Source of the DNA: a virus
Direction: 5' to 3' (one strand)
DNA: 25,088 nucleotides
IMG/VR virus record: IMGVR_UViG_3300013118_000136
Location: 1-25,088 of that record
The position numbers and the translations under genes are program-made. Positions 231-24,513 of this stretch are shown here, piece by piece; the first letter of the stretch is position 1, and each line of letters opens with the position of its first letter. The notes under the pieces were generated by a model, which did no database searches, was not told where the DNA came from, and saw nothing but the letters and a program-made list of their open reading frames with translations.

Positions 231-1651
231 TGAAGACCTTTTCATCATTTCTTATAGAGAAACGCCGTAACCCTGATAAGAATCCTAAGATTCCAGCTTA
301 TAAAGCGCTTGAGAAATATAAAGATGATGAAGATGTATATATATCATTTACTGATATAGATAAAATCGGAATTAATCCAAGATCAAAATTTAATACCCCT
401 TTAGCCATTTATACATATCCTCTTAAAGAAATTTGGGGAGGATTTGATCATAATGCAAAACATGTGAAGGTTCCATTTGCTGAGAAGTCTCCTTATATTT
501 GGGTAGTAAAAGAAAAGAAAGAAAAGTTCGTTAAGGATCTTTATTCTGATTATACATCGGCAGATTTTGATCGGGATATGGATCAAATTGAAAAATTGTA
601 TGGTGATCAAATAAATTTTATTACCATCTCAACCGCTAGTCAATATGTCTTTGACATTTCAAATATAATTATTGATTCAGTACTTACTCCTAGTTCTCCA
701 GAGCAATTTCAGGTCAATATGAAGGAGTTTGCAAAGAAGGGGCATTATGATTTTGTGAAGAAGACTTTACAGATGAAACCTATTGAATGGGAAACCTTTG
801 TAACTAAACTCAATAAAAGATTTGAGAAATTGCCAGATTGGAAAGATGTTGAAGTAAATCCTAAGGCTAGGACTTCTTTATCCGGTAGACTCCAAGCAAA
901 GATCAATAACTACAATAGAGAGTTTGGTGGATTAGATAAAATTATCAATGCTGCTTCTCGCTTTGCAGCTGTAAAATCTCCAGCTGGTTCTTTTTGGTAT
1001 GTAACAAGGAGAGTTGCAACTCTCATTACGGCAAAAGATAATTTTGAAATTGGTGATAATTTTGAAATGGCTAAGAAGGATATTATTGCATGGAATAAAA
1101 TCTTTAGAGAACTTGGTTATTCTGGATTTGCTGATAAATCAGGAAAGGGTATTATACATCCAGCGGAACCAACTCAAGCAATCTTTTTAGAGAAGAGTGC
1201 TTTTAAAGTAATAGAGAAAGTATCTAATATTAATCCACGTCATGTAGTAAGTACTCCAGAAGACATAATGGCGATAATTGCTTCCAATAATATTACTATT
1301 TCTGGCCATCTAATTATGTCAAATGATCCATCAATTTATATAGATCCAAAAATGGGAGATGGTTCTTGGATTCAATCAAAGCATATATCGAAAATATTAT
1401 CTTCACTACTGTCAAAATCGATACCATACGGTGTCACTGAAGATGGTGATTATCGTTTAGGAATGAAGATGGCATTCAAATATGCAAAGAAGCTTAAAGA
1501 TGTTGATTGGGAATATGTTATTGATTACTTAGAAGGTACAATGATAAATATATATAGTAAAGATCCATTTAAGAAATGGTTCAAATTGTATAAAGTTGAT
1601 AAGAAGACACAAAAATATATTTTAGCTAAGATACAGCAGGATAATGTATGA
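230..1651 (+). CDS. Large putative internal head protein with capsid-targeting leader
   Basis: A 473-residue protein that begins MKTFSSFLIE|K. The first ten residues match in length and layout the capsid-targeting sequence of T4 internal proteins (MKTYQEFIAE|A), with L-I-E as the expected prohead-protease site. I infer that the protein is packaged in the head and processed. Past the leader, residues 36-66 carry a Y-I-S-F-T ... G-I-N-P ... T-P-L-A-I-Y-x-Y-P-L pattern, and residues about 295-320 contain G-Y-S-G-F-A-D-K-S-G-K-G-I-I-H followed by E-P-x-Q-A-I-F-L. I have the impression these blocks recur in large phage polyvalent or injected proteins, but I cannot assign an activity. The start overlaps the previous stop (TAATG) and the end overlaps the next start (ATGA). 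It is the largest member of a run of leader-bearing genes. Confidence 0.75.
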   Translation: MKTFSSFLIEKRRNPDKNPKIPAYKALEKYKDDEDVYISFTDIDKIGINPRSKFNTPLAIYTYPLKEIWGGFDHNAKHVKVPFAEKSPYIWVVKEKKEKFVKDLYSDYTSADFDRDMDQIEKLYGDQINFITISTASQYVFDISNIIIDSVLTPSSPEQFQVNMKEFAKKGHYDFVKKTLQMKPIEWETFVTKLNKRFEKLPDWKDVEVNPKARTSLSGRLQAKINNYNREFGGLDKIINAASRFAAVKSPAGSFWYVTRRVATLITAKDNFEIGDNFEMAKKDIIAWNKIFRELGYSGFADKSGKGIIHPAEPTQAIFLEKSAFKVIEKVSNINPRHVVSTPEDIMAIIASNNITISGHLIMSNDPSIYIDPKMGDGSWIQSKHISKILSSLLSKSIPYGVTEDGDYRLGMKMAFKYAKKLKDVDWEYVIDYLEGTMINIYSKDPFKKWFKLYKVDKKTQKYILAKIQQDNV

Positions 1652-2205
1652 AGACATTTATTCAACATATTGATGAAGCAATTGATTTTGCTCCAAGATC
1701 AGATAGATCTAAAGAAGTAAGTATATTCCTTGGAAGAATGCAACCAATTCATATTGGTCATCAAGCTATTATCAAGACAATGAAGAATCCTATTATTCTT
1801 CTTGTGAAAGGTAAAGCTTCATCAAAAGATAAGAAACGTAATCCCTTTGACGCTAAGTATCAAACAAAGTTAATTAAGAAGTTGGACAAAAAGGCATTAG
1901 TATTAGAAGTATCTACCGGGTATCTTCCTGAGATTGCTAATAATCTTCGTAAGGTTGGAAAAGAAGTAGTTGCTGTTCATGCCGGATCAGATAGACTTGA
2001 TTCATATAAGAAACAATTTGAGCGTTTAGGATTAGATGTTGATTACGAATTTAAGATTAATTGGAATCTAACCCCAAGAGTTGCAAGTGCTACTGATGTA
2101 CGCAATTCATTATGGGATAACAATGAAAAAGCCTTTCGTAATTTAATGCCGAAAGAGCTTTGGAAAGAATTTGAAACAATGAAACAAAAATTAGGAGTAG
2201 AGTAA
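1648..2205 (+). CDS. NMN adenylyltransferase-like nucleotidyltransferase with capsid-targeting leader
   Basis: A 185-residue protein. Residues 1-10 (MKTFIQHIDE) are a capsid-targeting-like leader with I-D-E as the putative cleavage tripeptide. The catalytic domain follows: residues 29-38 read G-R-M-Q-P-I-H-I-G-H, the HxGH signature of class I nucleotidyltransferases, and residues 147-152 read S-A-T-D-V-R, the ISxTxxR-type triphosphate-binding motif. A K-x-R-N-P-F segment near residues 62-67 is typical of NadM-type NMN adenylyltransferases. The known reaction of that family is NMN + ATP to NAD + PPi. Substrate is not provable here; related nucleotidyltransferases use pantetheine phosphate or CTP. 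Combining the leader with the enzyme suggests it is packaged and delivered with the DNA. ATGA overlap with the upstream gene. Confidence 0.8.
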   Translation: MKTFIQHIDEAIDFAPRSDRSKEVSIFLGRMQPIHIGHQAIIKTMKNPIILLVKGKASSKDKKRNPFDAKYQTKLIKKLDKKALVLEVSTGYLPEIANNLRKVGKEVVAVHAGSDRLDSYKKQFERLGLDVDYEFKINWNLTPRVASATDVRNSLWDNNEKAFRNLMPKELWKEFETMKQKLGVE

Positions 2206-2390
2206 TGAGTGGAAATGTACATAAACATGTAGAAGATGAAGCACCTGAAGTATTAACTGAGGCACCTGTTCAACCAGTTGCTGGAGATGCATTGCTTCGT
2301 GATGCGAATACTGGAGTATTCTATCGTGGAGCTAAGCTAGCAGGATCACCATCAGGTACTAAGAGCGGGGAACCATACTGGGAAGTATAA
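2205..2390 (+). CDS. Small acidic hypothetical protein
   Basis: A 61-residue product. The N-terminal half is acidic and Pro/Val/Ala-rich (residues about 9-27) and probably disordered. The C-terminal half contains G-V-F-Y-R-G-A-K-L-A-G and ends in Y-W-E-V. There is no MKTF leader, which makes it the one gene in the 230-3505 run without it. TAATG junctions on both sides place it firmly in the operon. Function unknown; its position suggests a virion or internal-protein partner, but that is only inference from context. Confidence 0.65.
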   Translation: MSGNVHKHVEDEAPEVLTEAPVQPVAGDALLRDANTGVFYRGAKLAGSPSGTKSGEPYWEV

Positions 2391-2731
2391 TGAAAACATT
2401 TAAAGAAATAATCAATGAATCAAAACTTACGCCAGCGGTAATGGTTAAGCTTTTTAAGAATGTTGATGACTGGGGTCCTGATACGAAGGATCATGTTTAT
2501 GTTAAAAAAGGCAATCTTGTTTATATTGAATCTTGGTATTATGGTGAAGAGAAGGCTATGAAACAACTTGTAGATTCTTGGAAAAAGGGTGGTCATAATC
2601 ATGACTACTGGATTGATAATGGAGCCAAGAGTATTAAGATTGTTGATACATTTTCTGAAATCAAGGCAAGCGGAAGACATAAGAAACTTACTAAAGACGG
2701 TATTGTAGGAGTGGAACTTAAAATTTCATGA
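2390..2731 (+). CDS. Putative internal head protein with capsid-targeting leader
   Basis: A 113-residue protein starting MKTFKEIINE|S. The leader is ten residues long and ends in I-N-E, as expected for a T4-type prohead-protease site. The mature part would be about 103 residues, Lys/Asp/Trp-rich, with W-Y-Y-G-E-E near residue 50 and a Lys-rich C-terminal half. No membrane segment or enzyme motif is seen. The start overlaps the preceding stop (TAATG) and the end overlaps the next start (ATGA). T4 internal proteins are small and basic, and this fits loosely. No individual function can be given. Confidence 0.7.
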   Translation: MKTFKEIINESKLTPAVMVKLFKNVDDWGPDTKDHVYVKKGNLVYIESWYYGEEKAMKQLVDSWKKGGHNHDYWIDNGAKSIKIVDTFSEIKASGRHKKLTKDGIVGVELKIS

Positions 2732-2946
2732 AGACATTCAAACAACTAATTACTATTTCTGAAGGTAAAGATCGTTACATCAAGTTAGATGGTAAAGATA
2801 GTATGGAAAAACTACATGATACAATGGGTGATGATGCAGATGAATTAGGTCATGAAGGTGATATTATGATTGTTCCTTCAGCTGTATGGAAATCATTTCA
2901 AAAAGCAATTAAGAAATTAAAGTATTCTTATAAGGAAGTAAAGTGA
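2728..2946 (+). CDS. Small putative internal head protein with capsid-targeting leader
   Basis: A 72-residue product starting MKTFKQLITISE|G. The leader is slightly longer (12 residues) and ends in I-S-E, compatible with the (L/I)-x-E rule of the T4 prohead protease. The remainder is mixed-charge (D/K/E-rich), with W-K-S-F-Q-K-A-I-K-K-L-K in the last quarter that could form an amphipathic helix. ATGA junction upstream and GTGA junction downstream. Unknown function; the leader is the only functional clue. Confidence 0.68.
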   Translation: MKTFKQLITISEGKDRYIKLDGKDSMEKLHDTMGDDADELGHEGDIMIVPSAVWKSFQKAIKKLKYSYKEVK

Positions 2947-3194
2947 AACATTTTAAAGAGTATATCGAAGATATGATTGATGAGGGCCGTGCTGATCCTA
3001 AGAGGTATAAGCAGATTATGAAGATCCTCAAAAACGGTAAAAGTGCATCAATTACATTATCACGTGGTGAATGGTGTTCAGTAGATGATGTAGAACAGCT
3101 TGACAAGAATGCAGATACATTTTTCTGTACCGATGAAGATGGCGAAGAGATTGAAACGTCATATGATGATATAGGAAATATTGAAATAGTATGA
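2943..3194 (+). CDS. Small putative internal head protein, GTG start, leader variant
   Basis: An 83-residue product read from a GTG that overlaps the previous stop (GTGA). It begins MKHFKEYIEDMIDE|G, a variant of the shared leader with H for T at position 3. Two candidate cleavage tripeptides are visible, Y-I-E at 7-9 and I-D-E at 12-14; the second fits (L/I)-x-E better and is followed by Gly. The C-terminal half is very acidic (D-E-D-G-E-E-I-E). The GTG is preferred because it preserves the leader and the four-base overlap seen throughout this operon. Confidence 0.66.
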   Translation: MKHFKEYIEDMIDEGRADPKRYKQIMKILKNGKSASITLSRGEWCSVDDVEQLDKNADTFFCTDEDGEEIETSYDDIGNIEIV

Positions 3195-3505
3195 AAACAT
3201 TTTCTGAATTAACTGAAGGCTCTATTATGATGAAGAGCAAATATACTATTGATAATCCGGAAGATCCAGAAGTAATGATTTCTGGATATGGTTCTTTAAC
3301 TCTTTCTAAAATTAAATCTGGTGTTGTTAAGCAATTAGAAGATCTTGTTAAGCGTGCTAAAAAGGATGATTTCAAAACTGCTCTTTGGGCTATGGAAGAA
3401 GGTGGCGGTGCATTACTTGGAAAGCTTCAAGCTATTAGAAATGCTGAAGAAGAAATGAAAAAGGGACCTTATAAACGCAAGCTTACGTTAGCTAAGAAGA
3501 AATGA
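3191..3505 (+). CDS. Putative internal head protein with capsid-targeting leader
   Basis: A 104-residue product starting MKTFSELTE|G, with L-T-E as the putative prohead-protease site nine residues in. The mature part is Lys-rich, ending in K-L-T-L-A-K-K-K, and has a central predicted helix (L-E-D-L-V-K-R-A-K-K-D-D). A basic packaged protein that binds DNA would fit, but this is inference. ATGA overlaps on both sides. It is the last of the six leader-bearing genes. Confidence 0.7.
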   Translation: MKTFSELTEGSIMMKSKYTIDNPEDPEVMISGYGSLTLSKIKSGVVKQLEDLVKRAKKDDFKTALWAMEEGGGALLGKLQAIRNAEEEMKKGPYKRKLTLAKKK

Positions 3506-9847: not shown

Positions 9848-10282
9848 TTGAGGTTGAACGAGTTAACATGGACATATAAAGGTAAAGAATTTACTTCTGA
9901 CAATATTGGGGAGTATTATGGCTTCATATATCGTATTACAAATTTGGTTAATGGCCATGACTATATTGGACGTAAATATTTCAAAACTAAGAGGAAGCTT
10001 AAACCACTTAAAGGTAAGAAGAGAAAACGGATCAAAATTGTAGAGACCGACTGGAAAGATTATTATGGTTCTTCAAAGAGATTGTTAGAAGATCTTGAAA
10101 ATTATGGTAAGGAAAACTTCAAACGAGAAATTATTGAATTGTGTACAACAAGAGGAAATACAAATTATGCTGAGTTGGTGTGGCAAGTGAAAGAAGAAGT
10201 TCTATTGAGAGAAGATAACTACAATGGTATCATAGCCATTAAAATAGGAATTGGGAGTGTTACAAATGATGATGAAAAATGA
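9848..10282 (+). CDS. GIY-YIG endonuclease, probable homing-type; 5' end may be frameshifted
   Basis: 144 residues from a TTG preceded by GGAGGAGGAG. The GIY-YIG core is clear: G-F-I-Y at 25-28, Y-I-G-R at 39-42 with the catalytic Arg, then W-K-D-Y-Y-G-S-S and K-E-N-F-K-R-E-I-I, which are typical of phage Seg-like nucleases. Such enzymes cut DNA and are often selfish elements between conserved phage genes; here it sits just after nrdB. The reading frame stays open upstream of the TTG (P-A-A-W-E-E-E), while a separate frame from the ATG at 9784 reads M-N-I-K-K-F-I-P-T-E-W-Q-Q-H. Removing one base near 9826 would join them into one longer N-terminus, so the gene may carry an inactivating or programmed frameshift. 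Confidence 0.8.
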   Translation: MRLNELTWTYKGKEFTSDNIGEYYGFIYRITNLVNGHDYIGRKYFKTKRKLKPLKGKKRKRIKIVETDWKDYYGSSKRLLEDLENYGKENFKREIIELCTTRGNTNYAELVWQVKEEVLLREDNYNGIIAIKIGIGSVTNDDEK

Positions 10283-11992: not shown

Positions 11993-13804
11993 ATGAGAAG
12001 TAATGATATTAAAGTCTTATCTGAGAGAGATCATGTAAGACAAAAGCCTGGTATGTATGTAGGAGATATTACGCTATCTCCTCATAATAGGTGGGGGATA
12101 CATGATGATAGTATTAAAAAGCAAGACATTGATATTGTTCCTGCTTTTCTCAAGCTATTTGACGAAATCATTTCAAATTCAATTGATGAATATCTAAGAA
12201 CAGATGGCAAATATGCGAATCTAATCAAGATCAAAGTTGATGGTAATAAAATTACTATCGAAGATAACGGCCGTGGTGTAGCATCAAAGTATGATAATGA
12301 TCATGGAAAGACTAAAGCAGAACTTGCTTTTACTAATCTTAGAGCAGGCGCTAATTTTGGTGAAGATTCATTTGTATCTATAGGTACACATGGTCTAGGA
12401 GCATCTCTTGTTAATATTATGTCTCATCGATTTACTGTCATAACTGATGACGGAAATGATCGTACGCATATTAAATGTAAAGATGGTATGCTTCATTGCG
12501 ATGCTTCAGTATCAAAATCATCACATCAAGGTACTCGTGTAACATTTGAACCTGACTATGAATTATTGAATATGGATCATCTTGATGATATTCATCTAAT
12601 GATGATTCAAAAACGAGTAATGGATTTAGCGGTATGTTACCCCAAGATTCAATTCAAGATGAATGGTAAGCTTGTTAAAAGCCGAGCATTCAAGAATTAT
12701 CTATCAATGATCGATCCAGAGTTTGAGCTACTAGAAACCGATCATTATAAAATTGCTGTACTTCCATCAGAATCTGGTGATCAAATCTCATTCTTAAATG
12801 GTATTGAAACCTTTAGAGGCGGATCACATATTGATCATGTATCAATGATCATTACAAATGCTTTACGAGATAAGATTAATAAAAAATATAAGATCAAAGT
12901 TAAACCTTATGACATCAAATCAAAATTTGTTATAGTTCTTATTACGAATGAGATCCCAGATCTTAAATGGGAAAGCCAAACCAAAGAACGAATGACTCTT
13001 GAAGTTGCTAAGTTCAGAAGTTTATTCGCTGATTTAGAAACTAATGATAAATGGTTCAATAAGATTATGCGTAATGAAGATCTTATTATGCCAATCATTG
13101 AAGCTCAATTACTTAAGAAACAATTAGCCGATGCTAGAGAATTGAGAAAGAAACAAAAAGATGCTCATAGAAAAAAGGTTGTATCGCACGTACAAGCCAA
13201 AGGTATGGGTAATATCTTATTCTTGACTGAGGGACAATCGGCAATTAGTAATCTGATTAAAGTTAGAGATCCAAAAATACATGGTGGATATCCGCTCAAA
13301 GGTAAAGTCAAGAATACTTATGGTATGAAACTTACTGATATTATTAAGAATAAAGAGTTGAGTGATGTAATGAATATCCTTGGTATATCTCTCGGGGAAC
13401 CAATCTCAACAATGAATTATGATTATATTGGTATTCTCACAGATCAAGATGTCGATGGCCACCATATTAAGATATTATTGGTTGGATTCTTCTCCCATTG
13501 GAAAGAGCTATTCAAAAATCATAAAGTACGAATTTACAATTCTCCGCTAATGATTGCGAAGAAGGGTAAAAAGGTTAAGTATCTATATACGTTAAAAGAA
13601 ATCTCTGAAACTGATTTGACGGGCTGGACCACTAAATATGCTAAGGGTCTAGGTTCTCTATCTGCGTCAGAGTATAGGGATATCATCAATACTGATGACT
13701 ATGATGTGATCACTATGGATGATGTAAAAGATGAAAAAGCATTACACCTTGCATTAGGTAATGATGCTCAATTAAGAAAGGACTGGTTATTGTGTACAAG
13801 CTAA
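11993..13804 (+). CDS. 39: Type II DNA topoisomerase large (ATPase) subunit, T4 gp39/gp60-like
   Basis: 603 residues. The GHKL ATPase domain is at the N-terminus: E-I-I-S-N-S-I-D-E (motif N), E-D-N-G-R-G-V and G-T-H-G-L-G-A-S-L-V-N. The TOPRIM domain has E413 in T-E-G-Q-S-A and D484/D486/D488 in D-Q-D-V-D-G-H-H, which hold the catalytic metals. Most homologues have EGDSA; here the Asp is Gln. It works with the DNA-cleaving subunit at 14141-15415 in the phage topoisomerase that supports replication-fork initiation. The gene is continuous, whereas T4 splits it into genes 39 and 60. AGGATT ribosome site before the ATG. Confidence 0.93.
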   Translation: MRSNDIKVLSERDHVRQKPGMYVGDITLSPHNRWGIHDDSIKKQDIDIVPAFLKLFDEIISNSIDEYLRTDGKYANLIKIKVDGNKITIEDNGRGVASKYDNDHGKTKAELAFTNLRAGANFGEDSFVSIGTHGLGASLVNIMSHRFTVITDDGNDRTHIKCKDGMLHCDASVSKSSHQGTRVTFEPDYELLNMDHLDDIHLMMIQKRVMDLAVCYPKIQFKMNGKLVKSRAFKNYLSMIDPEFELLETDHYKIAVLPSESGDQISFLNGIETFRGGSHIDHVSMIITNALRDKINKKYKIKVKPYDIKSKFVIVLITNEIPDLKWESQTKERMTLEVAKFRSLFADLETNDKWFNKIMRNEDLIMPIIEAQLLKKQLADARELRKKQKDAHRKKVVSHVQAKGMGNILFLTEGQSAISNLIKVRDPKIHGGYPLKGKVKNTYGMKLTDIIKNKELSDVMNILGISLGEPISTMNYDYIGILTDQDVDGHHIKILLVGFFSHWKELFKNHKVRIYNSPLMIAKKGKKVKYLYTLKEISETDLTGWTTKYAKGLGSLSASEYRDIINTDDYDVITMDDVKDEKALHLALGNDAQLRKDWLLCTS

Positions 13805-14091
13805 TAAGAAATAAATACAAAGACATTATTCCAAAAGAGAAGTTATCAATTGTAAGCCCAAATGATTCTCCTATTCAATATAAGAAGTTCTTAATTGATA
13901 AAGTACATGAAGAGTTAGATGAATTGGCTGAAACTGATTATACAGATATTAGTGAGTTTGCCGATATTTATGAAGTCTTTCTAACTATCATGAAGATTCA
14001 AGGTATTACTGAACATGAGGTTAGAGAAGCAAGATTAGACAAATTGAAACAGAGAGGTTCTTTTTCTAACGGGCTTTTATTGCAATATTAG
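13792..14091 (+). CDS. MazG-superfamily house-cleaning pyrophosphohydrolase (COG4997-like)
   Basis: 99 residues from GTG, overlapping the end of the topoisomerase gene by 13 bases. It opens M-Y-K-L-I-R-N-K-Y-K-D-I-I and carries an ExxE(n)ExxD metal site: E41 and E44, then E55 and D58. It ends with a R-L-D-K-L-K-Q-R-G-S-F segment. This is the layout of small all-alpha NTP pyrophosphohydrolases related to phosphoribosyl-ATP pyrophosphatase, which hydrolyse (non-canonical) NTPs to NMP and PPi. Its placement between topoisomerase subunits is curious, but it may simply be a nucleotide-pool gene. Substrate unknown. Confidence 0.75.
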   Translation: MYKLIRNKYKDIIPKEKLSIVSPNDSPIQYKKFLIDKVHEELDELAETDYTDISEFADIYEVFLTIMKIQGITEHEVREARLDKLKQRGSFSNGLLLQY

Positions 14092-16998: not shown

Positions 16999-17307
16999 AT
17001 GAAATTTGATAAGAATAAACCACCCCTAGCTCTGATCCCACCAGAAGTATTATTTGAAATAGCTGAAGTATTTGCCTTTGGTGCAGATAAATATGGAGCT
17101 TATAATTGGCGTAGAGATGGTTCAAATACTGAATGGTCAAGAACATATTCATCAATTCAGCGTCATCTAAATTCTTGGTGGATGGGTGAAGACGAAGATG
17201 AAGAATCTGGTAAGAATCATTTAACGCATGCAATGACACAAATGATTATTTTATACATCCATCAATTAGAACATCCTGAAATGGATGATCGTTATTATGA
17301 GGAATAG
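16999..17307 (+). CDS. dATP/dGTP diphosphohydrolase-like protein (DUF5664-like)
   Basis: 102 residues. It opens K-F-D-K-N-K-P-P-L-A-L-I-P-P-E and then reads F-G-A-D-K-Y-G-A-Y-N-W-R, Q-R-H-L-N-S-W-W-M-G-E-D and S-G-K-N-H-L-T-H-A. This run is distinctive for the family annotated as dATP/dGTP diphosphohydrolase (DUF5664), whose S-2L relative MazZ makes dGMP for base-Z synthesis. The likely role here is nucleotide-pool control. It is the first gene behind promoter P4, with an apparently leaderless start, and sits four bases before the thymidylate-synthase-family gene. Exact substrate unknown. Confidence 0.75.
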   Translation: MKFDKNKPPLALIPPEVLFEIAEVFAFGADKYGAYNWRRDGSNTEWSRTYSSIQRHLNSWWMGEDEDEESGKNHLTHAMTQMIILYIHQLEHPEMDDRYYEE

Positions 17308-17310
17308 ATA

Positions 17311-18135
17311 ATGAGACAATATATAGGACAAAACTTTTCAAGTGTATATCGCAATTTAGGTCATGATCTTCGATGGCTCCCTGATAGAGATGATGTATCT
17401 CCAAGAGGATTTAAGATCAATGAAATTTCTAATGCATACTTGGAAATTCATAATCCACTAAATTCATTATTTCATACTGCTGAACGTGAACCGAGTTTGA
17501 ATTATTTAGCTGGTGAATTGCTTTGGTATTTTTCTGGTAGACGTGATCTTGAATTCATTGAAAAATACAGTACATTTTGGCAACGTCTTACAAACCCAGA
17601 TGGTCAATTGAATTCTGCTTATGGATATCAATTATGGAATAATCCAAATGAACATGGGATTACTGAATGGGAATGGGCAAAGAATTCATTACTTAATGAT
17701 ATTGATTCAAGACAAGCTCTTATTCGATTCAACAAACCAGAAGTAAGCTTTGATGGTGTCAAAGATTTTGTTTGTACTCTCAATGGTATTTTCCAAATTC
17801 GTGGTGATCAACTAAATCTAACTATCAATATGAGATCTTCTGATTATATCCGTGGATTGACATATGATGTACCATTCTTTGGATTATTGATTTCAGCAAT
17901 GAGACATGAGCTTAAAGATGTATATCCTAATTTGAAAAATGGTTATCTTGCAATGCTATTGAATAGTTCGCATCTATATGAAGAACATTTTGATATGGTT
18001 GAGAATATGCTAACCGATCAAATGTGGGATGCTCCTCCTCTACCTGATTATGATGAAAATATTATTCGTCGCCCAGTTGAGAGTATTCTAAAGGCTAATG
18101 GTCAATTAGTAGAATGGATTAATGAACACATATGA
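17311..18135 (+). CDS. Thymidylate-synthase-family enzyme, dCMP-type (deoxycytidylate hydroxymethylase-like)
   Basis: 274 residues. Family landmarks: E69 in A-G-E-L-L-W-Y-F; S-A-Y-G-Y-Q-L-W; nucleophile C155 in D-F-V-C-T-L-N; R175/S176/D178 in N-M-R-S-S-D; and S-S-H-L-Y-E-E-H. In dUMP-specific enzymes the residue aligned with D186 (G-L-T-Y-D) is Asn (E. coli N177). T4 dCMP hydroxymethylase has Asp there (D179), and its D-F-M-C-T-N and N-M-R-S-N-D blocks resemble those seen here. I therefore infer dCMP as substrate, with hydroxymethyl- or methyl-dCMP as product. Followed with ATGA overlap by the SGNH-like gene. Plain thymidylate synthase is the alternative. Confidence 0.8.
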   Translation: MRQYIGQNFSSVYRNLGHDLRWLPDRDDVSPRGFKINEISNAYLEIHNPLNSLFHTAEREPSLNYLAGELLWYFSGRRDLEFIEKYSTFWQRLTNPDGQLNSAYGYQLWNNPNEHGITEWEWAKNSLLNDIDSRQALIRFNKPEVSFDGVKDFVCTLNGIFQIRGDQLNLTINMRSSDYIRGLTYDVPFFGLLISAMRHELKDVYPNLKNGYLAMLLNSSHLYEEHFDMVENMLTDQMWDAPPLPDYDENIIRRPVESILKANGQLVEWINEHI

Positions 18136-19121
18136 AAAAGATAGCAGGATTAATGAGAAATGTTCCTAGTAATGAATATTCACATAATGCTGCATATGCC
18201 AGAATTTGGGGAAAGCTATTAGATGCTGAATGTGAAAAAGGTCATCCTCAATATGATGCTGATGTAACATATATCTATATTGATATTAACTACTCTGGCT
18301 CATTAAATTTATTTGATGGTCTATCAGAAGATATTTACAAAAGATCTTTATCGTTTCTAAACTACGATAAAGATCTTTTTATGTTAGATCATCCAATGCC
18401 AGATATTGGTAAAATATTTCGTAACAGATTAAGTAATAAGAGTACTTTTGAAAAATTCAATGAAAAGTTTTGTGATGATCTATCAAAGAAATGTAAGAGT
18501 ATTAAGACAATTACAATGGATGATATGATTAAGGATTCTTTAGTAATTGGAGATTCTCATTCATTATCTATTGCTCCAATGGCAGTACCAATTTATCGAT
18601 TAGATGGTAAAACTCTTCATGGAGCTACAAAAGATCATTCATTTATAATTGATATGATACCAGAATCAGTTAAAAAACTTACTTTGAATTTTGGTTCTAT
18701 TGATATTAGACATCATCTATTTAGATTTGAAGATCCATATAAATCTGCTGATGAATTATTGGATAGATACTTTAATTTAGTTAAAGCAATACAAGAGAAA
18801 GGTATTGAAGTAGAAATTGCTAGACCAATTCCAGTAGAAACTAAAGAAAGGAAGATGGCAAAAACTACTATGTATAAAGGTAATCCTTTCTTTGGATCTA
18901 GACAAGATCGTTTAGACATAACAAAATATATTATAAATAGTATGGATACCAAAGCACCATGTGATGTTATTGGTTATCCTCTGGATTGGTATGATATGCC
19001 ACCAGAACTATTTGAAAAGGAAATCATGGAAAGACCTAGAGGTATTCATATTGGATACCCAAAATATAGGTTGAATGATTATGGTGTAAAGGGTGATACT
19101 TTAGAATCGTTCTTTACTTGA
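18132..19121 (+). CDS. SGNH/GDSL-like protein with C-terminal LxxFF tail
   Basis: 329 residues. V-I-G-D-S-H-S-L-S with S142 is block I of the SGNH hydrolase fold; L-N-F-G-S-I-D-I-R-H-H (about 184-195) may stand for block III; and H306 in R-G-I-H-I-G-Y-P may be the catalytic His. The Asp usually three residues before that His is Arg (R303), so ordinary esterase chemistry is doubtful. The protein ends D-T-L-E-S-F-F-T, an L-x-x-F-F tail shared with two downstream proteins. ATGA overlap with the dCMP-type enzyme suggests a common pathway. A transferase or hydrolase acting on a group attached to DNA is possible, not shown. Confidence 0.65.
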   Translation: MKKIAGLMRNVPSNEYSHNAAYARIWGKLLDAECEKGHPQYDADVTYIYIDINYSGSLNLFDGLSEDIYKRSLSFLNYDKDLFMLDHPMPDIGKIFRNRLSNKSTFEKFNEKFCDDLSKKCKSIKTITMDDMIKDSLVIGDSHSLSIAPMAVPIYRLDGKTLHGATKDHSFIIDMIPESVKKLTLNFGSIDIRHHLFRFEDPYKSADELLDRYFNLVKAIQEKGIEVEIARPIPVETKERKMAKTTMYKGNPFFGSRQDRLDITKYIINSMDTKAPCDVIGYPLDWYDMPPELFEKEIMERPRGIHIGYPKYRLNDYGVKGDTLESFFT

Positions 19122-19134
19122 TGTGCGTCCTACT

Positions 19135-19159
19135 CTGCAATTTTGCAGTCAAATTTGAC
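19135..19159. promoter_or_regulatory. Overlapping palindromes upstream of the inositol-phosphate-synthase homologue
   Basis: CTGCAA (19135-19140) and TTGCAG (19143-19148) form a stem with a very short loop. A perfect 12-bp palindrome, GTCAAATTTGAC, covers 19148-19159. They lie in the 62-base gap between two genes, one of the few gaps in this block. A TGATATAAG extended -10-like sequence at 19167-19175 lacks a good -35. Candidate operator or weak terminator; no stronger claim. Confidence 0.35.
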
Positions 19160-19183
19160 GTTAAACTGATATAAGGAGAAAAT

Positions 19184-20464
19184 ATGTCAAAGAAAATTAA
19201 AGCCGCAATAGTCGGCGTTGGCTCTTGTGCCAAATCCCTAGTTGAAGGTATTCAATATTACGTTCAAACTCCCGAAGATAAAGTTGGTCTTATGTATGAA
19301 GACATTGGTGGTTATACCGTCAATGATATCGAATTTGTTTGTGGATTCGATGTAGATAAACGAAAGGCTGGTAAAGATCTAATCACAGCTTTAAGAGCTA
19401 AACCAAATTGTTCAATGAATCATGTAAATGAAATTGACAATACTTGTGTCCATGAAGATGCTAAAGTTTATTCTGGTCCAGTACTAGATGGAATTGCTCC
19501 TCATATGCTTAATTATCCTGAAAATGTTTCATTTAGAGTTGGAGCAGAACCAGCTATTAAAGCTGATCGAGTAACTGAACTTCTTAAGTATCATGAGGTT
19601 GATGTTCTAATCAACTATCTTCCTGTTGGTTCTCCAGAAGCTTCTAAATTTTATATTGATGCTGCCATGAAAGCTGGATGTCATATCATTAATTGTATTC
19701 CAACTTTCATTTCTACAGAAGATGCGATGGAACTTGAACAAAAAGCAATTGATAAAGGATTAACCATTGTTGGATCAGATATGAGATCTGCTTTTGGTGC
19801 TTCAAGACTATCTGAAGTTTTACAAGGTTCTATGCTTGATGCTGGTTTGCAAATCACACAACATATTCAAGAGAATAAAGCGTGTGGTTCTACTCAAGGT
19901 CAAGAACATATTAGAACTGGACGAACAGCTAATACTGACTTCTTGAATATGGCTAAACAAGATCGTCTTCATGATAAGCATGTATCAAAAGAGAATGTTC
20001 TTAAAGGTCAAAATACAGTAAGAGATGTAGATTTTGGTGGTAATACACTATATGCTGGTCCTTCATTAACTGTTCTTCAAAAGCCAGGTGGTGAGTATGT
20101 TGGATCAGATAATAAGGTAGCTCAAATTGATATGGTTGCATATGGATTTGGTGGTGCCCGTTATGAATTAACTTCAAGATTATCTGTTCAGGATTCACCT
20201 AACTCAGGTGGTGTTGTTGTTTCAGCTCTTCGTTTTTGTAAGGTTGCTTCAGAAATGGGTATTGTTGGTTTTTTAAGAGGTCCATCAGCTTGGACTCAAA
20301 AGACTCCACCAGTACAACTTACAACAGCAGATGCAAAATATGAATGTGATGCTCTTGCTAGAAGAGATTTAACTGGATATACAGAGCCACAACTTAAGAG
20401 TAATAATCCCAAGGCTAAAAATCTACCTTATACATTCCAATCAGCAAAGAATGATTATGAGTAA
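19184..20464 (+). CDS. myo-Inositol-1-phosphate synthase homologue
   Basis: 426 residues with AAGGAG upstream. Rossmann NAD-binding motif G-V-G-S-C-A-K-S at 11-18, then F-D-V-D, G-P-x-L-D-G-I, V-D-V-L-I-N-Y-L-P-V-G-S, N-T-D-F-L-N-M and S-V-Q-D-S-P-N-S-G-G-V-V. These follow the actinobacterial/archaeal-type synthase in order. The family converts glucose-6-phosphate to inositol-1-phosphate. In G-S-D-M-R-S the residue aligned with a conserved catalytic Lys (G-D-D-I-K-S) is R201, so activity or product may differ. There is also an insertion with A-C-G-S-T-Q-G-Q before the N-T-D-F-L-N-M block. The following HAD phosphatase could dephosphorylate the product. An unusual gene for a phage. Confidence 0.82.
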   Translation: MSKKIKAAIVGVGSCAKSLVEGIQYYVQTPEDKVGLMYEDIGGYTVNDIEFVCGFDVDKRKAGKDLITALRAKPNCSMNHVNEIDNTCVHEDAKVYSGPVLDGIAPHMLNYPENVSFRVGAEPAIKADRVTELLKYHEVDVLINYLPVGSPEASKFYIDAAMKAGCHIINCIPTFISTEDAMELEQKAIDKGLTIVGSDMRSAFGASRLSEVLQGSMLDAGLQITQHIQENKACGSTQGQEHIRTGRTANTDFLNMAKQDRLHDKHVSKENVLKGQNTVRDVDFGGNTLYAGPSLTVLQKPGGEYVGSDNKVAQIDMVAYGFGGARYELTSRLSVQDSPNSGGVVVSALRFCKVASEMGIVGFLRGPSAWTQKTPPVQLTTADAKYECDALARRDLTGYTEPQLKSNNPKAKNLPYTFQSAKNDYE

Positions 20465-20843
20465 ATCCATCAAGTCTTATGATATAGATGGTGTTATCAA
20501 CCTGGACGAGTATGGAATTGGTATTCGTCCAGGTTCTGATAATGATATTATAATTACTGGCCGATCGATTGAAGAAAGTGAAGAGACATATAAGTTCTTA
20601 GAAGAACATAATATTTCAAATATAGTTTATCTAAATCCTATACCATTTGATGAAAAGACTAGAGAAAGTAGTGGTTGGCATAAAGTAAATATCTTGAATT
20701 CGTTAACAAATCAAGGAATTAATATTATAATACATTATGAGGATGATGAAATTCAAGCCAATATCATTAGAGAGAATACTAATGTGAAGGTTATTAAAGT
20801 TGATCATCAAGATATGATTGAATTGGAGAATGTGAGAAGATGA
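20451..20843 (+). CDS. HAD-superfamily phosphatase
   Basis: 130 residues, overlapping the previous gene by 14 bases (a second ATG at 20457 is equally possible). The four HAD motifs are present: D11-I-D13-G-V (nucleophile and acid), T36 in I-I-T-G-R-S, K78 in W-H-K-V-N, and D98/D99 in Y-E-D-D-E. HAD phosphatases hydrolyse small phosphate esters. Next to an inositol-1-phosphate-synthase homologue, inositol monophosphate is an attractive substrate, but that is inference. It has no cap domain of any size and no LxxFF tail. ATGA overlap with the FkbM gene. Confidence 0.72.
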   Translation: MIMSKSIKSYDIDGVINLDEYGIGIRPGSDNDIIITGRSIEESEETYKFLEEHNISNIVYLNPIPFDEKTRESSGWHKVNILNSLTNQGINIIIHYEDDEIQANIIRENTNVKVIKVDHQDMIELENVRR

Positions 20844-21523
20844 AATATTATAATAATAAAGGATCAATTCAAGAAGCTGAAGTAAAACAAACTAAGGAAG
20901 GATTCTTCTTTAGAGTAAATACTTCAGACAAAGCTATGATCAGAGATTGTATAGTAGAGTATGATACAATCGATTTTCAAGATAAAGTAGTATTTGATTG
21001 TGGTGCTAACATTGGAGCATTATCAAAAATTGCAATAGATCGAGGTGCTAAGCAAGTTATTGCATATGAACCAGAAGAAAGTAATTATCAAATGGTTCTT
21101 AAGAATACTAAAGGATATCCTATTATTACAAAAAATAGTGCTTTGTCTAGTCAAGATGAAGATACACTATCATTCTGGATCAATAAATCAAATAATGCAC
21201 AATGTTCTGGTACATTAGATTGTAAACAGAAAGGTAGACGAGTAGAAGTAAAAGTGAATAATTTGAATTTTTGGAAGGAGCTAGATTTATATAAGCCTTC
21301 TATAATTAAAATGGATATAGAAGGCGGTGAATATGACATATTCAAAGAAGGATTTGAAATGCCAGATTACGTAACTGATATAGCTATTGAAATTCATCAT
21401 CCAAAAGAAATGGATAAATTATTTGAAGCATTGAACAAAATCTTTCCTGTTGTGAAGCATAAACATATTATTACTATGTTCAATAAACCTGGAATGATTG
21501 TAACACATTTGTCTAGAGCATGA
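20840..21523 (+). CDS. FkbM-family SAM-dependent methyltransferase
   Basis: 227 residues. SAM-binding motif V-F-D-C-G-A-N-I-G (about 52-60), acidic E-P in I-A-Y-E-P-E, and K-M-D-I-E-G-G-E-Y-D-I-F (about 156-167), the signature of FkbM-type methyltransferases. The family mostly O-methylates sugars or polyketides. In this cluster a hydroxyl of a polyol or sugar attached to the modified base is a plausible acceptor. ATGA overlaps at both ends show tight coupling to the HAD gene and to the next gene. Cell-surface or glycan decoration is the alternative. Confidence 0.8.
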   Translation: MKYYNNKGSIQEAEVKQTKEGFFFRVNTSDKAMIRDCIVEYDTIDFQDKVVFDCGANIGALSKIAIDRGAKQVIAYEPEESNYQMVLKNTKGYPIITKNSALSSQDEDTLSFWINKSNNAQCSGTLDCKQKGRRVEVKVNNLNFWKELDLYKPSIIKMDIEGGEYDIFKEGFEMPDYVTDIAIEIHHPKEMDKLFEALNKIFPVVKHKHIITMFNKPGMIVTHLSRA

Positions 21524-22737
21524 AATTAACAAAAGAGTATGTAGGAAAACCAAACCAACCTTCTTATGATTATGTACCTGATGATTGGTACAATATTGAT
21601 AAAGGATATAATCCAAATATAAATTACTCAAAATTGAAAGTAATTTCTCCAGAGTTATCTAAAAAGCTTTGGGATAATGTTAATAAGGATCTATTATGGG
21701 ATTTAAGATATTTTGCTCATAATGTTCAAAAAGGTTGGGAAGTAAAATATGATGTAGTTCCTGAAAAAGATTATGAAGTACCTGAAGCAGCTCTTGATTT
21801 AGATGTAGAGTATTTTGGATTTTGGGCCACGGCAGATGATCGTCTTAGATATATTTGTGAAAATATTGTTACTAATGATTCAATACCTCTTATTGATAAG
21901 ATTGGTAATGGATTAGCATCTCATTTTTATGGTGCACGAAATGTTCATCAAGGAATGACTGGCAAATCAAACCCTAAAGAAGCATTGATTGATTATAATC
22001 AATTAGCTGATGACCAATTAGAATTCTCAGAATCGGGAGAAGTTGGAGTATATACTTCAAATCTAAGATCATTCTTAGAACAGCAAAAGAAAGCTGGTGT
22101 AAAATTTTGGGGTACGACAGAGTTACATACGTCTATACAAACAGCTGGAAGACGTATGGTTAATGGTTATTATAAAGGAAATCCCTTAGATGATGATAAG
22201 GGGACTACAGCCAATGTTGCTGAATGGATTGCCTCTTGGAGAAATTCTGGTCTATTACAAAATATGATTGAGAATTCTGGTCTTAAAGCTATGTGCGAAA
22301 TTCTTGGATCTGAATGGGGTATTGGTGATTATTATAAATTTCATGGAGGTTCAGATCTAAGTCTTTGCCCTGAACTTAATGCTTATTTGGATGAAAGATA
22401 TGTTATTCCAGGACCTGGTGCATCATCTACTCTTAAAGACTTATGGCCAAATCTTACTAAAAAAGAAGTACCATATGATAAGAGAGTTATATGGTTACGA
22501 GAAAATCAAAAAGAACTATTAGGCTTACCTGAAATCAACGAGTTTTTTCATGAATTGAAAGTTGGAGATATTAGTATATTTCCTGAAAAAATTAATGAGA
22601 TCAAAACAACTCAAGCAGAAGTATTATGCTGTCAGTTTGCTATCTTTAAAGACTTACAACAGAATCCAGAAAAAATAGCCAAACGTAAAGTTGCAAGAAC
22701 AGCTACTTCATGCACATTAGAGGAATTCTTTACATAA
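21520..22737 (+). CDS. DNA-glycosylase-fold protein resembling alpha-glutamyl/putrescinyl-thymine pyrophosphorylase / hmdU DNA kinase helical domain; LxxFF tail
   Basis: 405 residues, all-helical in appearance. Residues about 265-340 contain G-I-G-D-Y-Y, Y-V-I-P-G-P-G-A-S-S-T-L-K-D-L and V-I-W-L-R-E-N-Q-K-E-L, then V-L-C-C-Q-F-A-I-F-K. This order (Gly-Pro-Gly-Ala turn, R/E-x-x-Q helix, C-x-F near the end) is what I recall for the helix-hairpin-helix, DNA-glycosylase-like proteins of phage thymine hypermodification systems. The product could attach or transfer a group on a hydroxymethylated base in DNA. It ends C-T-L-E-E-F-F-T, matching the tail of the SGNH-like protein. Family assignment is from memory and only moderately sure. 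Confidence 0.55.
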   Translation: MKLTKEYVGKPNQPSYDYVPDDWYNIDKGYNPNINYSKLKVISPELSKKLWDNVNKDLLWDLRYFAHNVQKGWEVKYDVVPEKDYEVPEAALDLDVEYFGFWATADDRLRYICENIVTNDSIPLIDKIGNGLASHFYGARNVHQGMTGKSNPKEALIDYNQLADDQLEFSESGEVGVYTSNLRSFLEQQKKAGVKFWGTTELHTSIQTAGRRMVNGYYKGNPLDDDKGTTANVAEWIASWRNSGLLQNMIENSGLKAMCEILGSEWGIGDYYKFHGGSDLSLCPELNAYLDERYVIPGPGASSTLKDLWPNLTKKEVPYDKRVIWLRENQKELLGLPEINEFFHELKVGDISIFPEKINEIKTTQAEVLCCQFAIFKDLQQNPEKIAKRKVARTATSCTLEEFFT

Positions 22738-22862
22738 TGAAATATGCTAAACAAGGCATTCATGCCAAAAAGAAATGCCCATATTGTGATCACGAAAACA
22801 ACCCCGCCAATTTAGCCAGACATATTAAAAAACAACATAAGGATAAATTAGATAATGATTAA
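22737..22862 (+). CDS. Very small C2H2-type zinc-finger protein (41 aa)
   Basis: ATG at 22737 (TAATG overlap with the preceding stop) to TAA at 22860-22862. The peptide carries C14-P-Y-C17 and H29-x4-H34, a single C2H2 finger, flanked by Lys-rich ends. It overlaps the cytosine-methyltransferase-like gene by eight bases. It is likely a nucleic-acid-binding accessory of the surrounding modification genes, although this is inference from position. It is short but well supported by motif and junctions. Confidence 0.65.
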   Translation: MKYAKQGIHAKKKCPYCDHENNPANLARHIKKQHKDKLDND

Positions 22863-24069
22863 ACATGCTAGCATAATACCATTAATTGGTGGAATAACAC
22901 TCGGTGCTGAAAAAATATTTGGACAAAGGCCTGAATATATACTTTCATATCCACTGTTTGCGAGTAATGATAAACACCTATTAGAGTATTATAATAATGA
23001 AGTGCCATATCACGTGATGGAAGTCGGTGACAATCAAACATTCCCACAAGTAGATGTTGTGACAACATGCTGTCCATGTGCTGGTTTATCAAGTTTAAGT
23101 ATTAATCCTGGTAGTGATAAAGAAGTAAATGATTGGATGTTGAATTCGGCTGAGTTTGTTATGGGTGAAATGAAGCCTAAAGTATTTTGGGGTGAAAATG
23201 CTCCAAGACTTGCTACTAAATTGGGTGCTCCAGTAGTAAAGAAACTAAGAAAAATTGCTTCAAAAAATGGATATGTAATGAGTCTTTATAAAACTAAGAG
23301 TATTTTACATGGGCTAGGTCAAGTTCGTGATAGAACATTTTACTTCTTTTGGAAAGATTCTCAAATTCCAATGTTTGAATATTATGATCGTCCATATGAG
23401 AAGATTGAAGACATGATTCGATCGGTTGAGTATGATGAAAATGATCCAATGTCAGTACTAACAAATGATAAGATTCCTTCTAAAGATGATTTATATTATC
23501 GATACATTTTAGAAGAGATTGAAGGTGGAATAAGTCATTCGAAGTTCCAAGATAAAATATCTTCTGAGAATAGACGAACTGGTAGTGTAATGTCATATCT
23601 TGAAGAGAAAGATGGTGGTTACTTAAAGTTTATTGAATGGCTTAAGAAAATTGGTCGAGATGATATAGTTGAAAAGACTATGAAAAAGCATCTTAAGTTA
23701 ATGGAAGGAAAGAACATTATGCGCCGTACGACTGAAGTTCCTTCAGATTATATTGGTGCATTTGTTGCTCATTTACCTCAATATCTTACTCACCCAGATG
23801 AAGATCGATATTTGACTGTTCGTGAAGCTATGTCAGTTATGAAACTTCCCTCAAATTTTAATTTAATAGAACCTAAGAAAAATCTTAATCATATTTGTCA
23901 AAATGTTCCAGTAACAACAGCTGCTGATATGGCTAAAAATGTGAAAAGTTATCTTGAAGGAAATATTGAAATGATTAAATCTGAATTCATCATTCAAGAT
24001 AACAAGTCTAAGAAGATAGAAGATTTTCATCAAGAAGATCTAACTAAATTTTTTAGTTTACAAGCATAG
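22855..24069 (+). CDS. C5-cytosine methyltransferase-like protein with LxxFF tail
   Basis: 404 residues. The m5C-methyltransferase motif order is intact: motif I-like P-L-I-G-G-I-T-L-G-A near the start, motif IV with P-C at 74-75 (T-C-C-P-C-A-G-L-S), motif VI G-E-N-A-P-R-L, motif VIII Q-V-R-D-R-T-F, then R-Y-L-T-V-R-E-A-M (motif IX-like) and Q-N-V-P-V (motif X-like). About 200 residues between VIII and IX form the variable target-recognition region. The protein ends D-L-T-K-F-F-S-L-Q-A, an L-x-x-F-F tail. The reaction is probably SAM-dependent transfer to C5 of cytosine, or a variant. It overlaps the zinc-finger gene; promoter P5 follows directly. Confidence 0.82.
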   Translation: MIKHASIIPLIGGITLGAEKIFGQRPEYILSYPLFASNDKHLLEYYNNEVPYHVMEVGDNQTFPQVDVVTTCCPCAGLSSLSINPGSDKEVNDWMLNSAEFVMGEMKPKVFWGENAPRLATKLGAPVVKKLRKIASKNGYVMSLYKTKSILHGLGQVRDRTFYFFWKDSQIPMFEYYDRPYEKIEDMIRSVEYDENDPMSVLTNDKIPSKDDLYYRYILEEIEGGISHSKFQDKISSENRRTGSVMSYLEEKDGGYLKFIEWLKKIGRDDIVEKTMKKHLKLMEGKNIMRRTTEVPSDYIGAFVAHLPQYLTHPDEDRYLTVREAMSVMKLPSNFNLIEPKKNLNHICQNVPVTTAADMAKNVKSYLEGNIEMIKSEFIIQDNKSKKIEDFHQEDLTKFFSLQA

Positions 24070-24085
24070 AAAAATGTGATATAAT
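24057..24085 (+). promoter_or_regulatory. Phage promoter P5 (extended -10)
   Basis: -35 TTTACA at 24057-24062 overlaps the last codons of the methyltransferase-like gene. A 17-base spacer leads to TGATATAAT, -10 at 24080-24085. The predicted start near 24092 leaves a leader of about 17 bases containing CCGGAG before the ATG at 24109, so this transcript does have a ribosome site. Confidence 0.8.
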
Positions 24086-24108
24086 AATATTTTAATACCG
24101 GAGTTTTT

Positions 24109-24513
24109 ATGAGTACAGATTGGGCAAAGGATATGAATGATATGCACCGACATTATGGTGTACATGATGTTGTAGAGAAAATGGATCCAGAGATGCTAAT
24201 AAAATTTGTTAGTTTTAGACATCTTTGTATCAATGAAGAGGTTGAAGAATTCAAAGAAGCATACGACAATAATGATGCTGAAGAAATGGTAGATGCTCTT
24301 ATTGATATGTGTGTATTCGCAATTGGTACTTTAGACCTTATGGGTGTTGATGCTAATGAAGCTTGGAGCAAAGTATTCGATGCTAATATGAATAAGAAAG
24401 TTGGTGTTAAAGAAGGAAGACCTAATCCGTTTGGTCTACCAGATTTAATTAAACCAGAGGATTGGGTTGCCCCAGATCATTTAGATAATCATGGAAAGTT
24501 TATCTATGTATAG
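24109..24513 (+). CDS. MazG-like nucleoside triphosphate pyrophosphohydrolase
   Basis: 134 residues. The metal site ExxE(n)ExxD is visible: E44-x-x-E47 in N-E-E-V-E-E-F, then E59-x-x-D62 and D66 in E-E-M-V-D-A-L-I-D. A later A-N-M-N-K-K-V-G-V-K-E-G-R-P-N-P-F segment is typical of phage MazG / phosphoribosyl-ATP-pyrophosphatase-like proteins. It hydrolyses a (d)NTP to the monophosphate. T4 with hydroxymethylcytosine needs a dCTPase (gp56) from the same broad superfamily, so a dCTP or dUTP substrate would suit this cluster, but specificity cannot be read off. Behind promoter P5. Confidence 0.78.
   Translation: MSTDWAKDMNDMHRHYGVHDVVEKMDPEMLIKFVSFRHLCINEEVEEFKEAYDNNDAEEMVDALIDMCVFAIGTLDLMGVDANEAWSKVFDANMNKKVGVKEGRPNPFGLPDLIKPEDWVAPDHLDNHGKFIYV

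Follow-up and report, generated by a model that had tools for sequence, protein, structure and literature searches.

Could a phage make inositol in order to attach it to its own DNA? The question is raised by a marine IMG/VR virus record assigned to a T4-like phage, IMGVR_UViG_3300013118_000136, of which the entire 25,088-bp stretch analysed here is called the window. Its translations include several genes of T4-like phages, such as those for ribonucleotide reductase subunits, topoisomerase, RNase H and ligase, and positions 16999-24513 hold an island of ten genes on the + strand with mostly overlapping frames. A first-pass annotation had proposed that this island hypermodifies DNA and has an inositol branch. 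Our analysis leads to a related explanation, which we hold with moderate confidence as a whole: the region is probably a DNA hypermodification island, the cassette of which makes a modified cytosine as well as free inositol and joins the two in phage DNA. The arrangement is not a product of chance: dozens of further viral contigs have the same set of genes, in several orders.

Inositol-phosphate-synthase homologues are linked to a glycosylase-fold protein

The cassette was followed through IMG/VR from two sides. Relatives of the myo-inositol-phosphate synthase (MIPS) homologue are encoded in 106 stretches, 80 loci were kept, and linkage was counted in the 39 loci that extend 4.5 kb or more downstream: a HAD-type phosphatase is present in 39 of them, a protein with the HMUDK_hel domain (PF18723) in 38, an SGNH-fold protein in 38 and a C5-cytosine-methyltransferase-like (C5MT-like) protein in 36. 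The sole locus without a PF18723 protein, L053, has the arrangement of Caulobacter phage Cr30. When the best 80 of 324 PF18723 relatives were used as seeds, MIPS was found in 76 of 78 loci, and none of the 34 loci that span 14 kb or more lacked it. The link between MIPS and PF18723 is reciprocal.

It also persists across gene orders. With 42 standing for the homologue of T4 gene 42, we observed 42-deaminase-MIPS-HAD-PF18723-SGNH-C5MT, 42-SGNH-MIPS-HAD-PF18723, SGNH-MIPS-HAD-FkbM-PF18723 and, in a jumbo contig, a shuffled order. Many organisms use MIPS as a housekeeping enzyme, and it stands beside different modification genes in Cr30 and in Stenotrophomonas phage Moby; one might therefore regard inositol synthesis as auxiliary metabolism, providing an osmolyte, a lipid head group or a redox cofactor, that merely neighbours a modification island. 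The linkage in both seedings and across gene orders makes this very improbable, as do the alternative settings in Aeromonas phage 44RR, Moby and Cr30, which again lie beside modification-type genes, and the lack of recurring phosphatidylinositol or mycothiol genes.

Commonly, the cassette lies between the gene 42 homologue and uvsX/gene 41; in other loci it is next to genes for DNA polymerase and ribonucleotide reductase. The beta-glucosyltransferase of T4 and the arabinosylation genes of RB69 occupy a comparable 42/43-uvsX neighbourhood. Polysaccharide clusters often contain enzymes of the FkbM, SGNH and HAD types, and the genes might thus decorate glycans of the cell surface or the virion, an outcome that the first-pass annotation had named as a refutation of its own proposal. 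However, neither the window nor the tested core gave a match to a polysaccharide polymerase or flippase, and the cassette is surrounded by genes for hydroxymethylase, dCMP deaminase, MazG, uvsX, gene 41, DNA polymerase and ribonucleotide reductase. The cell-surface glycan island was dropped because of this context of DNA metabolism, and we regard glycan decoration in general as hardly credible.

A dCMP hydroxymethylase-type enzyme and the likely handle

Which base would receive the group? The best PDB match of the thymidylate-synthase-family protein in the window is T4 dCMP hydroxymethylase (1b49, 7.8e-17), followed by CMP hydroxymethylase and then thymidylate synthase; homologues in related islands match 1b49 with 8.4e-70. 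The equivalents of Cys148 and of Asp179, which is Asn in thymidylate synthase, are kept in the window enzyme and in 26 of 26 aligned homologues. Those of Glu60 and Trp82 are kept in T4, 44RR, XG4, the window enzyme and nine marine homologues in an active-site alignment, in which RB69p048, presumably the 5-hydroxy-dCMP synthase, has Phe in place of Glu60 and also lacks Trp82. A homologue of dCMP hydroxymethylase in RB69-like phages yields 5-hydroxy-dCMP (PMC13390438); such a product was dropped for the island, where E60 and W82 are both retained. Hypermodification of thymidine was dropped as well, given the Asp179-type enzyme and the absence of ADDT from the cytosine loci tested. Since the enzyme bears the signature of the T4 hydroxymethylase (C148, E60 and D179 equivalents), the handle is most likely 5-hydroxymethyl-deoxycytidine (5-hydroxymethyl-dC), and the hydroxymethyl-cytosine step of the first-pass annotation gains computational backing at the level of the precursor enzyme.

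Of the 43 MIPS loci with complete upstream sequence, 37 have a dCMP deaminase next to the hydroxymethylase. Among long contigs with the hydroxymethylase outside the cassette, a match, in some cases a weak one, was found elsewhere in 9 of the 13 contigs searched.

MIPS and a HAD phosphatase as a predicted source of inositol

The MIPS homologue matches Ino1 of M. tuberculosis (PDB 1gr0) over its full length (residues 2-384, 3.2e-52), and K265, K269, K311 and K373 are invariant in 14 phage homologues. The pair 265-269 corresponds to the K-x-x-x-K pentapeptide that is essential to MIPS activity (PMC5614600). The protein scores 210.7 bits against the NCBIfam equivalog model TIGR03450 and is thus below the cut-off of 638 bits; this does not exclude MIPS activity since the model was built for the actinobacterial mycothiol enzyme. 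The phosphatase matches phrog_415, the phosphatase region of T4 Pnkp (1.3e-8). Its profile had no match among PDB sequences, and its set of HAD motifs is intact, with DxDG (D11xD13), T36, K78 and D98-D99 invariant in 20 sequences. It is a predicted inositol-phosphate phosphatase. With the Ino1 match, the lysine tetrad and the HAD motifs, the idea that inositol phosphate is made and then dephosphorylated has stood up to the analysis.

An alternative accepts the hypermodification of hydroxymethyl-dC and takes the attached group to be a different cyclitol from a drifted MIPS, or a compound derived from inositol phosphate by further processing. The second-best solved relative of the phage protein is indeed a five-membered-cyclitol-phosphate synthase (6k96), the score lies far from the equivalog cut-off, and the substrate imported by 44RR (see below) could equally be a hexose. 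We nevertheless consider this alternative unlikely: the match to 6k96 (6.5e-22) is to be set against the full-length match to Ino1, all four catalytic lysines are invariant, and the core has no recurrent dehydrogenase, aminotransferase or nucleotidyltransferase.

The MIPS-HAD pair also occurs apart from the cytosine cassette. Moby has it between folE and QueC/TGT/QueE and Cr30 beside ADDT and a TAGT-like protein; both settings are repeated in metagenomic contigs, the Moby type in L007 with QueC and the Cr30 type in L053 with a TAGT-like protein and ADDT. Since the pair is kept in phages that share little else of the island, we think that it supplies inositol to the modification of DNA bases in general.

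The PF18723 protein as candidate transferase

Which protein might join inositol to the base? In the first-pass annotation, one island protein had been described as a glycosylase-fold protein of the hypermodification type, and this description is supported. The window protein scores 30.5 bits against PF18723 (gathering cut-off 25), and the Pfam assignment holds for 26 of 27 family members. Its AlphaFold2 model (pLDDT 81.5) had no significant Foldseek match; with VIA-align, the top match is PUGT (8z2n; Z 10.1, 223 residues, 4.2 A), followed by the queuine-salvage enzyme DUF2419 and then by helix-hairpin-helix (HhH) DNA glycosylases (OGG1 and AlkA; MutY was also matched). PUGT is a phage glycinyltransferase that places glycine onto a phosphomethylated base in DNA. 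For a helical model, a Z of 10 is an indication short of proof; the Pfam assignment is consistent with it. The profile of the PF18723 protein had no match among PDB sequences, and profile comparison of the family with the 358-aa protein of Aeromonas phage 25 and with the ADDT of Cr30 detected no homology. Among the 27 members, no family besides PF18723 was found, and no fused P-loop kinase domain, the mark of a 5-hydroxymethyl-dU (5-hydroxymethyl-deoxyuridine) kinase. On the strength of the modelled fold, we predict a base-flipping transferase that acts on the modified cytosine.

Conversely, the PF18723 protein could be a glycosylase-like attacker or reader that tells host from phage DNA, with inositol being joined by another enzyme, for instance through a Cys-C6 adduct of the C5MT-like protein acting without S-adenosylmethionine (SAM). 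In vitro, C5-methyltransferases are able to join nucleophiles to hydroxymethylcytosine in the absence of SAM, the C5MT-like protein keeps the Cys, Glu and Arg residues and not the SAM motifs, and OGG1, AlkA and MutY are among the fold matches. Yet the top fold match is a base-modifying transferase, and the distribution of the genes points in the same direction: 44RR has a PF18723 protein without a C5MT-like protein, the phages XG4 and S-TIM5 have C5MT-like relatives without a PF18723 protein, and PF18723 tracks MIPS in every long locus. An attacker or reader is, in our view, distinctly improbable.

A proposed pathway and the points that weigh against it

We propose the following pathway, for which the protein families, the catalytic residues of the first two steps, the fold in the third and the conserved linkage were computed: (i) The dCMP-hydroxymethylase-type enzyme would form 5-hydroxymethyl-dCMP, which replaces dC in the phage DNA, and MazG-type pyrophosphohydrolases probably clear dCTP. 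(ii) Host glucose-6-phosphate would be converted to inositol phosphate by MIPS, and the HAD phosphatase would release inositol. (iii) The PF18723 protein with its PUGT-like glycosylase fold would flip out 5-hydroxymethylcytosine and, together with the SGNH protein, attach inositol to the oxygen or the carbon of the 5-hydroxymethyl group. (iv) Where FkbM is present, the inositol would be O-methylated, and the C5MT-like protein may help by bonding covalently to C6 and so loosening the substituent at C5. What we infer from these data is that inositol is the attached group, which bond is made and what the proteins of the fourth step do.

Several observations weigh against this pathway. PUGT-type transferases use a phosphorylated base and no P-loop hydroxymethyl kinase is seen in the island, which leaves the activation of the hydroxymethyl group unexplained. 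Homologues of MIPS can make other cyclitols, as 6k96, its second PDB relative, illustrates. The hydroxymethylase of the window is divergent; as it is just 24% identical to the T4 enzyme, 5-hydroxymethyl-dC is assigned to this particular copy with less certainty. The homologue search showed no dCMP hydroxymethylase in Cr30 and Moby, so that inositol, if it is used there, must go on another base. The loci belong to related T4-like phages that share ancestry and some contigs, and the counts are therefore not independent trials. Moreover, the PF18723 query alignment was built from MIPS-bearing loci, a bias towards close relatives, and of 324 relatives the best 80 alone were kept. This design does not by itself produce the linkage, however, since the SGNH scan was built alike and gave mostly MIPS-free loci.

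The SGNH-fold protein belongs to the island core

The annotation of an SGNH-like protein had come without a role. Its fold is confirmed: in the AlphaFold2 model (pLDDT 80), the segment from about residue 128 to 303 resembles SGNH carbohydrate esterases, with a Z of about 12. Ser142, the Ser of the GDS motif, and His306, the His of block V, are invariant in 24 sequences; the usual catalytic Asp three residues before the His is absent, with R, K or Q in its place. The protein belongs to the core of the island and is fused to the PF18723 protein in 44RR. IMG/VR holds at least 591 relatives, and the 29 long loci seeded with SGNH, some of which carry UDP-sugar enzymes, contain a dCMP hydroxymethylase in 25 cases but MIPS in just 3. 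The protein is thus a general partner in dCMP-hydroxymethylase islands, well beyond those with inositol genes. The SGNH loci L189-L267 mostly lie beside genes for dCMP hydroxymethylase, dCMP deaminase and two unidentified proteins of 300-350 aa, and are possibly another pathway of cytosine hypermodification. A homologue of the anti-CBASS protein Acb1 is encoded immediately before the SGNH gene on a 360-kb contig (L054:5556-6041).

Further genes of the island

O-methylation had been proposed as a regular step of the scheme. This did not hold: FkbM occurs in a minority of loci, 8 of the 39 seeded with MIPS and 21 of the 78 seeded with PF18723, and is not a core step but an optional tailoring enzyme, possibly for O-methylation.

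The C5-METHYLTRANSFERASE-like protein has its catalytic residues in place: Cys75, E114-N115 and Q156-x-R-x-R160 (motifs IV, VI and VIII) are invariant across 13 members. The same 13 members lack the parts that bind SAM: PL[IV]GG replaces the FxGxG of motif I, the acidic residue of motif II is not conserved (P/E/D/T/S), motif III has no conserved Asp, and the PDB profile match starts only at motif III/IV. An ordinary methyltransferase is thus unlikely from its motifs, and our hypothesis is a SAM-less role on the hydroxymethyl group. The SAM-contact residues were compared with those listed for CmoX and M.HhaI in PMC12783734; carboxymethylation of the CmoX type was dropped since the proteins have CPC, PPC or PVC for SPPC and Gln349 for Arg350 (PMC12783734). 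The PL[IV]GG-type family has relatives in loci L089 and L090 and also occurs in cyanophage S-TIM5 and Pseudoalteromonas phage XG4. XG4 combines its C5MT-like relative with a hydroxymethylase and glycosyltransferase-like proteins, and S-TIM5 with an ordinary thymidylate synthase. The XG4 record, which is unannotated, encodes in a row (L090:100-6580) a dCMP hydroxymethylase, a PNKP-like HAD protein, a fused NTP-transferase/choline-kinase-like protein, two proteins resembling glycosyltransferases and the C5MT-like protein; this set looks like a separate hypermodification island.

A MazG relative lies inside 35 of 43 MIPS loci and possibly removes dCTP. A second small MazG-like protein is encoded in the window at 13792-14091, between two topoisomerase-like open reading frames (ORFs). 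The diphosphohydrolase (PF18909) occurs in just 8 of the 43 MIPS-seeded loci for which upstream sequence is available, and is for this reason not counted to the core; it would be an accessory protein that shapes the nucleotide pool.

Aeromonas phages: import instead of synthesis?

The Aeromonas phages 44RR, 31 and 25 encode gp42 and no glucosyltransferase, and other modifications of hydroxymethyl-dC have been left open for them (PMC2993671). Our homologue searches identified gp42 in 44RR and its relatives, and neither MIPS nor HAD; in 44RR no C5MT-like protein was found either. ORF233c of 44RR is an SGNH::PF18723 fusion, and the adjoining ORF234c encodes a vSGLT-type Na+ symporter (3e-103). 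Taking the vSGLT site to consist of Glu88, Tyr263, Lys294, Gln428, Gln69, Ser91 and Asn260, the first four are kept and the last three are changed in the symporter, which suggests a sugar- or polyol-type site of altered specificity. In 44RR, import of a polyol would stand in for its synthesis. Phage 25 has a UDP-galactopyranose mutase, the 358-aa protein and an SGNH protein in place of symporter and fusion (L087:5764-9035), hinting at a furanose on hydroxymethyl-dC. When the 44RR fusion or the PF18723 or SGNH protein of the window served as a single query in IMG/VR, just the queries themselves or near-identical contigs were returned, and alignments were needed.

These phages invite a more general reading that we hold only tentatively: phages would possess cyclitol-bearing DNA, and a portable MIPS-phosphatase module would feed at least three base chemistries, i.e. 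hydroxymethylcytosine in the window, an ADDT/TAGT-like pathway in Cr30 and 7-deazaguanine in Moby. 44RR would import the polyol, and in the cytosine branch a glycosylase-fold transferase, perhaps aided by the SAM-less C5-methyltransferase relative, would form the bond.

Organization of the window

The families of the island proteins were assigned by Pfam, PHROG and NCBIfam scans. Pfam was weak or empty for the SGNH and HAD proteins, which were settled by the AlphaFold model with fold search and by PHROG with motifs, respectively. The ORF list and the translations reproduce the ten genes of the first-pass annotation on one strand, including the zinc-finger ORF, and the mostly overlapping junctions that it had noted: all are overlapping or nearly abutting except for gaps of 62 bp between SGNH and MIPS and of 39 bp between the C5MT-like and MazG genes.

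Table 1. Genes of the island at positions 16999-24513 of the window
Feature	Position	Strand	Basis
dATP/dGTP diphosphohydrolase N-terminal-type protein	16999..17307	+	Pfam PF18909 (dGTP_diPhyd_N) 1.6e-30
dCMP hydroxymethylase-type enzyme, thymidylate synthase superfamily	17311..18135	+	Pfam thymidylate-synthase family 9.5e-20
SGNH/GDSL-fold protein	18132..19121	+	AlphaFold2 model and fold search, Z about 12
myo-inositol-phosphate synthase homologue (MIPS)	19184..20464	+	Pfam Inos-1-P_synth 1.4e-7; PDB 1gr0 3.2e-52
HAD-type phosphatase	20451..20843	+	phrog_415 1.3e-8 and motif conservation
FkbM-family methyltransferase	20840..21523	+	Pfam PF05050 7.5e-11
HMUDK_hel (PF18723) protein, HhH-glycosylase fold	21520..22737	+	Pfam PF18723 3e-7; AlphaFold2 model
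Small C2H2 zinc-finger ORF	22710-22862, or 22737-22862 from internal ATG	+	Translation CPYCDHENNPANLARHIKKQHK
C5-cytosine-methyltransferase-like protein	22855..24069	+	Pfam PF00145 (C-5 DNA methylase) 4.3e-21
MazG-type nucleotide pyrophosphohydrolase	24109..24513	+	Pfam PF01503 (PRA-PH, MazG-type) 2.9e-10

Outside the island, five ORFs at 230-3505 start with ATGAARACNTTY (MKTF; 5 matches versus 0.13 expected), in most cases followed by short acidic stretches. These starts resemble the leaders that target T4-type internal head proteins to the capsid; one of the ORFs (1648-2205) is nucleotidyltransferase-like and could be packaged. The ORF at 9848-10282 has a GIY-YIG-like start (FIYRITNLVNGHDYIGRKYF) and possibly encodes a homing endonuclease.

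Relation to known systems and implications

Hypermodification of phage DNA is known as a kind of system; the chemistry proposed here would be new. The glucosylation of 5-hydroxymethylcytosine in T4 shares with the island a dCMP hydroxymethylase with the same catalytic residues, a similar 42-uvsX/41 position and the logic of camouflaging DNA. T4 relies, however, on host UDP-glucose and alpha/beta-glucosyltransferases, whereas the island has MIPS, HAD, PF18723 and SGNH proteins; no glycosyltransferase family was found among the nine island proteins scanned with Pfam and PHROG, although the window is a fragment and such a gene could lie elsewhere. Arabinosylation of 5-hydroxy-dC in RB69/Mosigvirus resembles the proposal in that the attached group is made by the phage, in the enzyme of the thymidylate synthase superfamily and in the locus between gene 43 and uvsX; it differs in the use of arabinose instead of a cyclitol, in an RB69p048 without E60/W82 and in that no MIPS or PF18723 protein is annotated there. 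With the hypermodification of thymidine (hydroxymethyl-dU kinase, PUGT and ADDT transferases), the island has the PF18723 domain and an HhH-glycosylase fold nearest to PUGT in common, but its enzyme is of the dCMP and not the dUMP type, no kinase or amino-acid branch is seen, and a polyol product is proposed. The CmoA/CmoX/CmoY pathway to 5-carboxymethylcytosine also repurposes a C5-methyltransferase homologue in a phage cytosine-modification island (PMC12783734); the present island is without CmoA or ligase families and without SPPC, and has Gln, not Arg, at the Cx-SAM position. Finally, the 7-deazaguanine islands of Menderavirus (Moby) place the MIPS-HAD pair beside base-modification genes, but they serve a guanine pathway, and no dCMP hydroxymethylase, PF18723 or SGNH relative was found in them.

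A list of phage DNA modifications names glycosylation, amination and carbamoylation, and no inositol or cyclitol (PMC12783734). We found no modification of DNA by inositol or a cyclitol in the searchable open literature, and prior mention outside that scope is possible. If the attached group is inositol, the nucleoside would be isomeric with glucosyl-hydroxymethyl-dC, with the same formula and mass, and could for this reason be mistaken for the known base of T4. Genes 233c/234c of 44RR are a candidate for the open hydroxymethyl-dC modification of Aeromonas phages. If our proposal is true, a polyol class would be added to DNA hypermodification together with a new family of transferases, and this would suggest that some uncultured marine phages carry polyol-modified DNA.

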